Source of the DNA: Anaeromyxobacter sp. Fw109-5
GTDB taxonomy: Bacteria > Myxococcota > Myxococcia > Myxococcales > Anaeromyxobacteraceae
NCBI RefSeq assembly: GCF_000017505.1
Contig: NC_009675.1
Coordinates: 5,026,501-5,090,500, forward strand
Length of the DNA stretch: 64,000 nt
Reading direction: 5' to 3'
Shown here: positions 14,457-51,521 of the stretch, piece by piece
How positions within the stretch are numbered: the stretch's first letter is position 1
Layout of the letters: the number at the start of each line of letters is the position of its first letter
Notes under the pieces: model-generated
The model's database searches: none
The model's input: the letters and a program-made list of their open reading frames with translations, nothing else
Told to the model about the DNA's origin: nothing
Made by a program: the position numbers and the translations under genes

Positions 14457-14562
14457 CCCGAGCGGCGCCCACGTTTTCCGATCGGGGTTCGTCGGTCGCG
14501 GTCGAGGTCGGCCTCACGAGATCCGTCGGGGTCGGGGGCGCGGTCGACGTCGGGGTCGGGGT

Positions 14563-14617
14563 CCCTCGACTCCGCTCCGTCGCTGACGCGACGGAGGCAC
14601 GCTCGGGATGACCGGCC
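14563..14617. repeat. Repeat family B, intergenic copy
   Basis: GGTCGG-type hexamer runs (about 14500-14562 and 14636-14656) flank a hairpin with arms CTCCGTCG (14575-14582) and CGACGGAG (14589-14596), then CGCTCGGGATGACCGGCC. The same block, with a few changes, occurs inside the gene at 50082-51521. It looks like a small dispersed palindromic element with unstable hexamer tracts. Confidence 0.65.
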
Positions 14618-14666
14618 TCAGGAGATCCGGCGGAATCGGGGTCGGCGTCGAGGTCGGGTGAAGCGG

Positions 14667-17086: not shown

Positions 17087-17956
17087 ATGCGCGACACGCA
17101 CGCCGCGGCCGCCGCCGCGCTCCGCTCCGCCGGCGCCCTCGTCGTCACCGCTGGCGCGGGGATGGGCGTGGACTCCGGGCTCCCCGACTTCCGCGGCGAC
17201 CAGGGCTTCTGGAAGGCGTATCCGCCCTACGAGCGGCTGGGCCTCTCCTTCGTGGACGCCGCGAACCCGGTCCACTTCGAGCGGGATGCGGCGTTCGGCT
17301 GGGGCTTCTACGGGCACCGCGCGCGCCTCTACCGCGAGACGACGCCGCACGCAGGCTTCGCGCTCCTGCTGCGCTGGTCCCAGCGGCTCGGCCTCCCCTG
17401 CTTCGTCGTCACCTCGAACGTGGACGGTCAGTTCCAGAAGGCCGGGTTCGCGGAGGAGCAGGTCCTGGAGGTCCACGGCTCCATCCACCACCTCCAGTGC
17501 ACCGAGCCGTGCTGCGGCACGATCTGGAGGAACGGCGAGGACGTCCCGGTGGACGAGGCGAGCATGCGCGCGCGGCGGATCCCGCGCTGCATCCGCTGCC
17601 ACGGCGTGGCCCGGCCGAACATCCTCATGTTCGGCGACGGCGCGTGGCTGTCCTCGCGCACCGAGGCGCAGGCGCTGCGCTTCGAGGAGTGGCTCGCCGA
17701 GCGCGGCGAGGAGCGGCTCGTGATCCTGGAGCTGGGCGCCGGCACCGCCGTCCCGACGATCCGCTGGCACTCCGAGCGGCTCGGGGCCCGTCCCGGCGCG
17801 ACGCTCGTGCGCGTGAACCCCCGCGAGCCCGACGTCCGCCCGCCGCACCTGTCCATCCCGAGCGGCGCGCTGGAGGCGCTGGAGGGGATCGACGCGTCCC
17901 TCGACTCCGCGCCCCCGCTCACGCGGGGGCGCGACGCGCGGGATGAACGGCCGTGA
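17087..17956 (+). CDS. Sir2-family NAD-dependent protein deacylase-like protein
   Basis: A 289-residue sirtuin-like protein. It has the NAD loop GAGMGVDSGLPDFRG, then TSNVDGQFQKAG, the catalytic His at 130 in EVHGSIHHLQC, and a four-cysteine zinc site split between CTEPCC and CIRC. ILELGAGTAVPTIR near residue 220 replaces the usual GTS block and is divergent. Sirtuins remove acetyl or other acyl groups from lysine using NAD, or ADP-ribosylate proteins. The altered NAD ribose region leaves activity uncertain. The start ATG has no ribosome site but a -10-like box 6 bases upstream. Confidence 0.85.
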   Translation: MRDTHAAAAAALRSAGALVVTAGAGMGVDSGLPDFRGDQGFWKAYPPYERLGLSFVDAANPVHFERDAAFGWGFYGHRARLYRETTPHAGFALLLRWSQRLGLPCFVVTSNVDGQFQKAGFAEEQVLEVHGSIHHLQCTEPCCGTIWRNGEDVPVDEASMRARRIPRCIRCHGVARPNILMFGDGAWLSSRTEAQALRFEEWLAERGEERLVILELGAGTAVPTIRWHSERLGARPGATLVRVNPREPDVRPPHLSIPSGALEALEGIDASLDSAPPLTRGRDARDERP

Positions 17957-35720: not shown

Positions 35721-36440
35721 GGTCGGGGGCGAGGCCGGGGTGTTTGTCATTCGTCACATCGGCTCGCGCTGGACTCCGGACGAGGTGCCGACCGCGCGAC
35801 CGTGGTGGGCACGCACGAGGGAGCAGTACGAGCAAGGGAAAGCGGGCTACGAGGGGCCGGAGGGGCGGCGTCGCCGCGCGTCCGCCGCGTCGCCGGAAGG
35901 CGCTGCGGTCGGCATGGCCCCCGTTCCGCCGACCGCGGTCACGTTGCCCACAAGCCCTGCTGAATGGCAGCTGGGGCGGTGTTCTTGGAGTGCCGTTCGC
36001 CCTGAGCCTGTCGAAGGGCGAGCGGCGTCCCGCTCGTGGTTCGACAAGCTCGCCACGAGCGGTCGTTAGGCGGGCGGCTTCGAGATCCTCAGCCAGCGAT
36101 AGCTCTTGCGAGCGACGCGAGTCCCAGTTGCGGGGTGAACGTTGCCCTCTTGAGCGCGCCGGTCCTCGGGGGGCGTGGCGATGATGGAGAGGTCGCGCAC
36201 CGAGGTTCGAGGCGAAACGCGCTCACACGTCTTCGGCGCGTCGAGAAAGACAGCAGATACCGTAAGTGAATGTCGCGAGACATTGCGCGACCTTCCTCGG
36301 ACCTGCTCTGCCCGCTCGTCCAGTCCTCGCGCCGACGGCGATGAAGACCCGCCGGTGCGATGCGCGACGCGGGTCGAGGTCGAGGGGTCGGGGTCGGTCG
36401 GCGGGAGCGCCGGACCGCCCGGAGCGGGCCCGGCGCCGTC
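35721..36440. other. 720-base gap with REP-like repeats
   Basis: No gene is supported: the open frames are short, change frame with the repeats and have no ribosome sites. The stretch holds a pair of REP-like hairpins (35997-36061) and, near 36370-36400, a GGTCGG tract like the one flanking repeat family B. It may be a decayed gene or an accumulation site for small repeats. Confidence 0.55.
35997..36061. repeat. Paired REP-like palindromes (family A)
   Basis: Two hairpins in tandem: TCGCCCT / AGGGCGA around GAGCCTGTCGA (35997-36021), and CGCTCGTGG / CCACGAGCG around TTCGACAAGCTCG (36031-36061). The loops are inverted relatives of one another. Further family A copies lie at 40227-40255, 56764-56781 and 60371-60409, all intergenic. 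Confidence 0.65.
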
Positions 36441-50081: not shown

Positions 50082-51521
50082 TCATCTCCTCAGCTCGGCG
50101 ATGGCGTTGCGCGCGACGGCGGCCTCCTCACCGTCGGGGTGCTCCGCCAGGTATCTCTCGTAGCGGCGGATCGCGTCCGCGTCCCGTCCCTGCGCCCGGT
50201 ACGCCTCGGCGAGGCCCAGGAGCGCGTCCGCGTGAGCGGGGACGAGCTCCAGCGCGGCCTCGAAGCTGGCCGCGGCCGGGGCGTAGCGGGAGAGATCGAG
50301 ATAGCACAGCCCCCGCCCCGCCAGGGCGTCGGCGTTCTGAGGATCGTCCGAGGCGACCCGGCCGAACAGCTCCAGCGCGCCCCGGTAGTCGCCCCGCGCG
50401 CGGAGCCGGCCGGCCTCGGCGAGCAGGGCCTTCGGCCCGCGCGGGCGGCTCGGCTGCTGGGCGGCCTGGGCTTCGGTGGCAGGCGCGGCGGGCTCGGCGG
50501 ACGCGGAGACGACGGCCGTGCCGGCGGGTGAGGAGCCTGGCTGCGGGAGAGCCGCCACCACGGCCGGACCTTCCTCGACCGGGCTCGTTCCTCGGTTCCG
50601 GTCCGCGGCTTCGGAGGCGGAGCTCCCCTCGGTCGGGGTCGCGGTCGCGGTCGCGGTCGAGGTCGGGGTCGGGGTCGCGGTCGGGGTCGTCCCTCGACTC
50701 CGCTCCGCCGCCTCGGCGACGGAGCTACGCTCGGGATGAGCGGCCTGTGGGTCCACGCCCGCGGTCGGGGTCGCGTTCGCGGTCGGCCTCCCCCGCGCGA
50801 TCGCGGTCGAGACGACGCTCACCCCGGCGCGCACCTTCTCTTTCGCGCCGGGCACGAAGCCGTACGCGCCCGCCGCCGCGGCCACGAGGAGGAGGGCGGC
50901 CACGGCGCCCCAGAGCGCGGCGCGCCCCCGCCGTCGGACCGGCGAACGCGCGCGGGGCGCAGGGGCGGGAGCGGGCCTCGCCGCCGGCGGCCGCGCCAGC
51001 GTGGCGGGGGGCGGGAGCGGCAGCGCGGGAGGCGGAAACCCCGAGGGCGGCGGGGGCGGGACGCGCGGGGGGCGGGGGGTCTCGACGGGCGTCGCGCGGG
51101 CGCGCTCCGCCTGCTCCACCACCGCGAAGAAGCTGCCGAGCTCCTCGATCTCGCCGAGCCGCTTCCAGGTGTCGCCGCCCGCCGAGATCTCGGCCTCGCG
51201 GGCGATCTTCCCCTCCACGATCCACTTCTGCACGGTGGTGAGCTCGCGGCAGGTGAGGACGCCGCCGCCGGGGCTGCGCACGCGCCACTCCCGCGGCTCG
51301 CTGCGCGGCGGGGCGCCGCCGCTCGGGCGCGCGGCGGCGCTCGCCGGCAGGGGCGCGCGGTCGAGCTCGCCCGGCTTCACCGGCACGGTGACGACGAGCT
51401 CCTTCTTCTTCACCTTGAAGAGGTGCCCGCAGTTGGTGCACTGCACGGCCAGGCCCGACGGCGTGACCTGCTCGTCGTCGAAGACGTACTGGGCCTTGCA
51501 GCGCTCGCAGCGGACGTCCAT
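50082..51521 (-). CDS. MJ0042 zinc-ribbon / GYF-like / TM / TPR protein (GltJ-like plan)
   Basis: A 479-residue protein. Order: MJ0042-type zinc ribbon (C5, C8, C28, C31), a GYF_2-like domain (about residues 78-130, [17 protein letters not shown]), a Pro-rich stretch, one membrane helix near 205-228, a Thr/Pro/Ala-rich linker (about 238-300) and three or more TPR repeats at the C-terminus (periplasmic if the zinc ribbon is inside). The N-terminal plan recalls myxobacterial motility protein GltJ/AgmX; that is inference. The linker is encoded by repeat family B: GGTCGG hexamers give Thr-Pro/Thr-Ala pairs and the hairpin gives [17 protein letters not shown]. It starts the gat gene run. Confidence 0.78.
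50634..50745. repeat. Repeat family B copy inside a coding region
   Basis: A GGTCGG/GGTCGC hexamer tract (50634-50690) is followed by the same hairpin block as at 14563-14617 (CCCTCGACTCCGCTCCG ... CGCTCGGGATGA). A diverged second half-copy lies at 50588-50634. The element is in frame and codes for a Thr/Pro linker. Confidence 0.65.

Follow-up and report, generated by a model that had tools for sequence, protein, structure and literature searches.

The window analyzed here is a 64-kb stretch of DNA, bases 5,026,501-5,090,500 of the single-contig genome of Anaeromyxobacter sp. Fw109-5 (5,277,990 bases; G000), and it was compared with eight other genomes of the genus (G001-G008). Its minus strand carries a gene whose product contains a Zn_ribbon_4 domain at residues 1-36, a membrane helix, a long linker, and TPRs from about residue 397 (Pfam). 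A sequence-only reading of the region had described a block, CCCTCGACTCCGCTCCG...CGCTCGGGATGA, accompanied by GGTCGG hexamers and present both between genes and, as an in-frame linker between the membrane helix and the TPR domain, within the TPR gene. Both occurrences are indeed present (Table 1), and the open reading frame runs uninterrupted through the coding one, which specifies an 18-residue peptide (residues 260-277). A covariance model of this repeat family, family B, was built from 12 copies (R1). It detects three complete copies in the window, with E values from 1.5e-16 to 6e-15; each of them is on the minus strand. An Rfam scan of the window at the gathering threshold matched no family.

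Table 1. Family B copies, adjoining hexamers, and host gene within the 64-kb window
Feature	Position	Strand	Remarks
Zinc-ribbon/TPR host gene	50082..51521	-	479 aa, continuous ORF; Zn_ribbon_4, membrane helix, linker, TPR; Pfam, gene caller, genus orthologues
Main coding copy of family B	50689..50739	-	R1 74.4 bits, E 1.5e-16; absent from the G005 and G008 orthologues
Ten GGTCGN hexamers	50631..50690		NCGACC on the coding strand, a [PAST]-Thr repeat of 20 residues
Two more GGTCGN hexamers, opposite flank of coding copy	50763..50774		more degenerate units to ~50809
Diverged second copy, same frame	50587..50632	-	15-residue peptide; 36/46 identity, ungapped, to main copy
Intergenic copy between two convergent genes	14561..14611	-	74.0 bits; gene ends 105 and 102 bases away
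Upstream extension CCGGCCTCAGGAGATCC (coding strand GGATCTCCTGAGGCCGG)	14612..14628	-	common to many copies
GGTCGN hexamers adjoining intergenic copy	14494..14511		looser array reaches 14563
Third copy, antisense	17896..17946	-	68.0 bits; overlaps 3' end of SIR2-family gene 17087-17956 (+), Pfam SIR2

The third full copy had escaped the sequence-only reading. It adjoins the stop codon of the SIR2-family gene and supplies the C-terminal tail ASLDSAPPLTRGRDARDERP; similar antisense copies at 3' ends occur at L174, L182, and L308. That reading had also proposed a diverged second copy preceding the main one in the TPR gene. The shared frame and the ungapped identity uphold the relationship, and in a local alignment only 1 of 16,880 coding windows of the genome scores as high, but R1 places this copy below significance (10.9 bits, E 1.5). 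It precedes the main copy in window coordinates only; in the gene it comes after it. Relatives of the TPR protein are found in Anaeromyxobacter terrae, A. soli, and A. oryzisoli; the G005 protein looks identical to that of A. soli and the G008 protein to that of A. terrae, so that these two genomes may represent those species. An AlphaFold model based on an alignment of three sequences assigns pLDDT values of about 60-89 to the TPRs (mean for the protein, 52.6) and values below 50, without secondary structure, to residues 218-257 and 259-360.

The family B element is a 51-nt palindrome that consists of constant arms, TCATCCCGAGCG...GAGTCGAGGGAC, and a covarying 10-bp stem; on the sense strand the order is TCATCCCGAGCGTAGC, the stem-loop, and GCGGAGTCGAGGGAC. 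In a flank listing of 53 copies, many continue upstream with GGATCTCCTGAGGCCGG, which reads GSPEAG in genes. The outer pairing is 4 bp, and a target duplication, if there is any, is hidden by the hypervariable hexamer flanks. In the alignments GTAG commonly stands immediately before the stem, some 11 nt inside the 5' end of the element; it is thus not terminal, and it varies. Stem positions changed on both sides number six pairs in the first 12 copies, 29 cells in 25 coding copies (an alignment that leaves out the second, identical DnaE2 copy and a later 46-nt copy), and 32 cells in 18 intergenic copies of 51 nt; in each case 0 of 500 shuffles did as well, although common descent of the copies may inflate these counts. 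Five copies folded as single-stranded DNA gave -12.5 to -24.1 kcal/mol (z -1.29 to -5.54), the weakest being the coding copy of the window, which 23 of 200 shuffles equal. A second palindrome family, of the CCTTCGACAGGCTCAGGAC type, sits inside the loop or an arm of the family B copies at L016, L018, L020, and L024 and at L001, L003, and L008; it is also found singly in the window near 35993, 40225, and 60374.

Within the window alone, a 16-mer of the element with three mismatches is no more frequent than in shuffles (8 versus a mean of 7.0), so the family owes its significance to the element as a whole and to its genome-wide occurrence. Genome-wide, a 17-mer with at most two mismatches occurs 60 times versus 2 for its reversed control pattern. 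With scoring confined to 150 candidates, R1 yields a minimum of 105 matches at E <= 0.001. A sample of 464 kb (twenty evenly spaced 20-kb stretches and the window) contains 7 copies at E <1e-5, 3 of them in the window. Fifty-six G000 copies, each of at least 50 bits, were read from a ranked list ending near 52 bits, in which weaker copies are under-sampled; genes were called with a codon-usage caller trained on ORFs with GC3 >0.85. Thirty of these copies are intergenic and 26 overlap called genes, 22 of them internally, in 16 genes. Thus, where the sequence-only reading saw one recruitment, in-frame insertion is a genome-wide habit. Of 53 copies, 40 have the minus-strand orientation in the assembly.

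All 22 internal copies lie on the coding strand in one phase and read (A/G)HPERS...RSRGT. Twenty-one of them are 51 nt long and one, in a DUF4175 gene, is 46 nt; among the other G000 copies the 51-nt length is found in 16 of 34 (Fisher p 1.4e-4). The remaining four gene-overlapping copies are antisense: three sit at gene 3' ends (the SIR2-family gene, L174, and a phage-integrase gene at L182), and the fourth falls within a probably spurious ORF of 106 residues. Avoidance of stop codons would not by itself lead one to expect a common frame, because four or more frames are free of stops in most of the 21 in-gene copies that were tested; the single frame has a log10 p of -12.6, a value that assumes independent copies, which tandem copies within one gene are not.

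The host genes are otherwise unrelated (Pfam assignments throughout). Single copies are present in genes for an HrpB helicase, a Ser/Thr kinase, an AMP-binding/acyltransferase protein, a peptidase C69, a DUF4388-DnaJ protein, two CheA proteins, Lhr, DnaX, the DUF4175 protein, and the TPR protein of the window. A DnaE2-type polymerase, a PD40 protein, a ClpA-type ATPase, and an ABC ATPase-permease each carry two, and a response regulator-DUF4388-TPR protein carries three in tandem. In 15 of the 16 genes the best Pfam stretches do not include the copies, which occupy tails or the gaps between domains; the exception is the 46-nt copy, which lies inside a long Pfam match. Alignments to PDB chains break at the insertions in Lhr (query 812-886 opposite chain residues 1003-1011) and DnaE (query 296-471 opposite 279-323), and those of ClpA begin only past the insert.

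NCGACC hexamers flank most G000 copies in a fixed polarity, although some host copies, such as L154, have few or none adjoining. Within 100 nt of 53 copies, CGACC occurs 325 times on the strand of the element and 12 times on the opposite strand; random sites would give 33. Windows of four GGTCGN units number 1389 in G000, 1185 in G008, 174 in G007, 80 in G005, 49 in G004, and 17 in G003; there are none in G001, G002, and G006, and the reversed control gives 0 in all nine genomes. Arrays of three or more units within genes read [PAST]-Thr in 14/14 cases in G005, 7/7 in G008, and 15/18 in G000, where the three that do not sit in ORFs of 106 and 132 residues; a small scan found one further reading, LDLD, in a short ORF. 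Many long arrays are intergenic, and the hexamer repeat is therefore not merely a protein pattern. One intergenic array, at L180 805-1338, has 89 units, and others exceed 200 bases.

Orthologues of the TPR protein show how the two parts of the linker vary. G000 has the palindrome and hexamers, only hexamers are present in G005 and G008, and neither part occurs in the other Anaeromyxobacter orthologues read, such as that of G003; the direction of change in this gene is assigned by parsimony. The two sister species thus lack the 20-residue palindrome block, and their [PAST]T tracts in the same linker differ in length. Together with the multicopy nature of the element and the low pLDDT of the linker, this supports the earlier suggestion that a small palindrome, presumably mobile, inserted in a tolerated linker and that the hexamers vary in number. 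A search for the contrary case, a linker conserved at the nucleotide level in distant species whose genomes lack further copies, yielded none.

The same pattern recurs in other genes. In DnaE2, two palindromes and a long tract in G000 are matched by a short tract only in G005; the stretch from VPNRSLR to GMALLR is 357 nt in the former and 114 nt in the latter, and the flanks are closely similar. The ABC gene has two palindromes in G000 and hexamers only in G005 and G008. ClpA has two palindromes in G000, one, with the same stem core, in G008, hexamers only in G005, and neither in five other orthologues spanning the linker, the ninth being truncated there. The sister status of G005 and G008 is judged from two genes (96.2% versus 86% in the TPR protein; the ClpA values are partial). 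Since the first ClpA copy is shared by G000 and G008 and is absent from G005, it must have been lost at least once or inserted repeatedly. Presence or absence of the palindrome thus differs between species at the same linkers, and because the tracts are hypervariable, none of the empty sites is exact to the base.

Hexamers also mark these linkers independently of the palindrome. Of 12 G005 genes with hexamer arrays (11 collected regardless of palindromes, plus the TPR gene as starting point), 9 are orthologues of palindrome hosts in G000, G008, or G004, with the array at or near the same linker; without the TPR gene the fraction is 8/11, and a hypergeometric value for the overlap, which rests on assumed gene totals, is indicative only. 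In PilQ the G005 tract corresponds to a second HPERS-like site of G008. As the hexamers fill the same linkers without the palindrome, they are not its by-product. The ABC ATPase and permease are a single ORF in G000, G005, and G008, with a hexamer tract at the joint (L267-L274), and are separate called genes in G001, G002, G003, G004, and G006. That the palindromes fused these genes was considered and rejected, since G005 and G008 share the fusion with only hexamers at the joint; the fusion is tied to the clade and the tract rather than to the palindrome.

The occurrence of internal copies is similarly uneven. In G008, 5 of 11 copies are internal, all on the coding strand, in the same phase, and 51 nt long. 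Elsewhere the counts are 0/10 in G001, 0/31 in G002, 0/5 in G006, 0/2 in G003, 0/1 in G007, and 1/6 in G004; one G002 copy lies antisense at a C terminus. G000 and G008 together thus have 27/67 internal copies versus 1/55 in the other genomes (Fisher p 1.3e-7). The single G004 case is a 50-nt antisense palindrome near residue 179 of recG (L280), and consequently the rule of a single frame applies to the hexamer-rich clade only. The recG gene of G005 (L258) has a hexamer tract near residue 159. In the hexamer-free genomes G001, G002, and G006, the 46 copies read include 45 intergenic ones and no in-frame internal one; neighboring copies there, 44-50 nt long, are often oppositely oriented, resembling REP doublets. 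A phylum-wide R1 search of 97 genomes with stricter filters gave, among the candidates scored, matches in five of the sampled genomes of the genus and one weak single match elsewhere. In the sample searched, family B is restricted to Anaeromyxobacter.

The explanation that we consider probable is that family B is a small, non-autonomous palindromic repeat, coupled in fixed polarity to hexamer tracts in the clade of G000, that survives in genes only when it lies in a harmless frame, mainly in interdomain linkers. A hexamer tract would come first, in a permissive linker; the palindrome would then land in or beside the tract, or be copied there by recombination between tracts, and both routes fit. 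The NCGACC tracts would lengthen and shorten by slippage or unequal recombination. Within genes, selection against other frames would leave both parts only as [PAST]-Thr and (A/G)HPERS...RSRGT, which are hydrophilic, stop-free, and probably disordered. By fixing orientation and frame, the tract is proposed to make insertion harmless.

A possible alternative, although one that we doubt, is that family B is an ordinary REP, mobilized by a RAYT (Y1) transposase, and that the hexamers are mere bystanders. In most copies GTAG directly precedes the stem of the hairpin, but at a variable, internal position rather than at one end. Y1_Tnp matches occur in 9/9 genomes of the genus; however, the stretches around the four weak Y1_Tnp ORFs of G000, searched for such linkage (L214, L215), contain no R1 match, and G005 has Y1 matches yet only two R1 matches among the candidates scored. 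The available part of one study reports REPs inside DnaE2, helicase, and other DNA-repair genes (PMC3733652). The hexamers, in turn, share the polarity of the element and fill the same linkers without it, and are therefore not bystanders. Movement of the palindrome itself by a Y1/RAYT enzyme, unlinked here, is possible. Weak Y1_Tnp ORFs are present at L031, L214, and L215, that of L031 being trailed by a different, unrelated-looking direct repeat.

It is unlikely that the protein-level module is primary, that is, that useful disordered [PAST]T-HPERS linkers were spread between genes by recombination and that the intergenic copies are cast-offs. Such a history would account for the single frame in 27/27 internal copies of G000 and G008, for the preference of in-gene copies for 51 nt (21/22), and for the use of the same linkers by different species. 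However, the nearly exclusive intergenic location of the copies in the three genomes without hexamer arrays indicates that the element thrives without coding, and the stem of intergenic copies covaries too. Less likely still is that the hairpin in coding copies is not just tolerated but retained because it acts as a nucleic acid, through mRNA stability, pausing at linkers, or protein binding. The stems of coding copies have 9.24 Watson-Crick pairs out of 10, versus 6.75 (sd 0.25) after synonymous recoding, and at one stem position of ClpA G000 has a T-A pair where G008 has C-G; but recent insertion alone would keep the stem, the changes may predate insertion, and many host genes are copy-free in sister species. 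NCG and ACC are preferred codons in GC-rich genomes, and Thr/Pro-rich linkers are common. A codon-biased, low-complexity Thr/Pro/Ala linker that resembles intergenic DNA by chance is nevertheless refuted by the element score at the same site (E ~1e-16), the reversed-pattern controls (0 and 2), the long hexamer arrays between genes, and the differences of whole blocks between orthologous linkers.

Tentatively, tract and palindrome might form one two-part system in which the tract is the landing site and its polarity steers the palindrome into the only harmless frame. If so, this would be a mobile element with built-in coding safety that builds disordered interdomain linkers, and a system that welds neighboring genes, such as those for the ABC ATPase and permease, into multidomain proteins, with "hot" linkers recurring across species. 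In-frame palindromic insertions are known mainly from Rickettsia, where the usual explanation is that selection is relaxed in an intracellular parasite. The insertions described here lie in core genes, in a single frame, and in a bacterium that is free-living and GC-rich and has a large genome. The near-complete sister genomes provide natural pairs with and without the insertion (DnaE2, ClpA, CheA, ABC, and TPR), and whether an insertion is neutral, harmful, or useful is thus directly testable. The hexamer tracts represent a concrete DNA route to disordered linkers and possibly to fused multidomain proteins.

Several known systems resemble family B in part; they are compared here as described in the accessible portions of the papers cited. 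Rickettsia palindromic elements (RPEs) are found between genes and in frame within many unrelated conserved protein genes, where they encode a conserved peptide (PMC2229807, PMC10969869). Family B is likewise a palindromic hairpin with a covarying stem that is both intergenic and in frame in unrelated genes (22/56 copies internal, 16 genes). RPE-1 type elements of intracellular alphaproteobacteria are 105-146 bp long; unlike RPEs of about 100-150 bp with a 12-bp terminal inverted repeat (PMC2229807), family B is 51 nt with an outer pairing of 4 bp. By description, family B also differs in belonging to a free-living myxobacterial genus and in having companion hexamer tracts that also occur alone. 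Small non-autonomous bacterial MITEs with ORFs (ERIC/RU-1, YPAL/RU-2, and the 107-bp NEMIS) can be fused in frame as well (PMC2229807), but these are about 100-200 bp long with terminal inverted repeats and often a TA target duplication, whereas family B has its 4-bp outer pairing, and its hypervariable flanks would hide any duplication. Tandem coding hexanucleotide repeats, whose units are divisible by three, similarly alter linker length without a frameshift; unlike these, NCGACC is coupled to a palindrome, has a fixed polarity, and is expanded in only some species of the genus.

Intragenic GTAG/CGTC REPs (Opitutus terrae, Rickettsia RPE-4/6, Thauera, and Xanthomonas) are short hairpins translated inside ORFs. 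Their hosts include DnaE2, DNA-repair, and helicase genes, they sometimes occur twice per gene, and their termini can supply stop codons (PMC3733652). Family B shares with them DnaE2 and helicase genes as hosts and two copies in some genes, and shares with REPs in general a high copy number (at least 105) and a mostly intergenic location (30/56 copies in G000 and 45/46 in G001, G002, and G006). Unlike GTAG REPs, it has GTAG internally and not at one end, and no cognate RAYT gene flanked by its copies was found (stretches L214 and L215); unlike intragenic REPs, it is found in one frame only and with hexamer tracts. The accessible text of PMC3733652 mentions neither Anaeromyxobacter nor Myxococcota. 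A literature search found no report of the element in Anaeromyxobacter; it covered the subscription literature thinly, and absence from print is not claimed. The hexamer coupling, the single frame, the ABC fusion, and the recurrence of the same linkers across species found no precedent in the RPE/REP literature accessible to that search and look new. Within that literature, the nearest precedents are the RPEs and the intragenic REPs, down to DnaE2 as a host.
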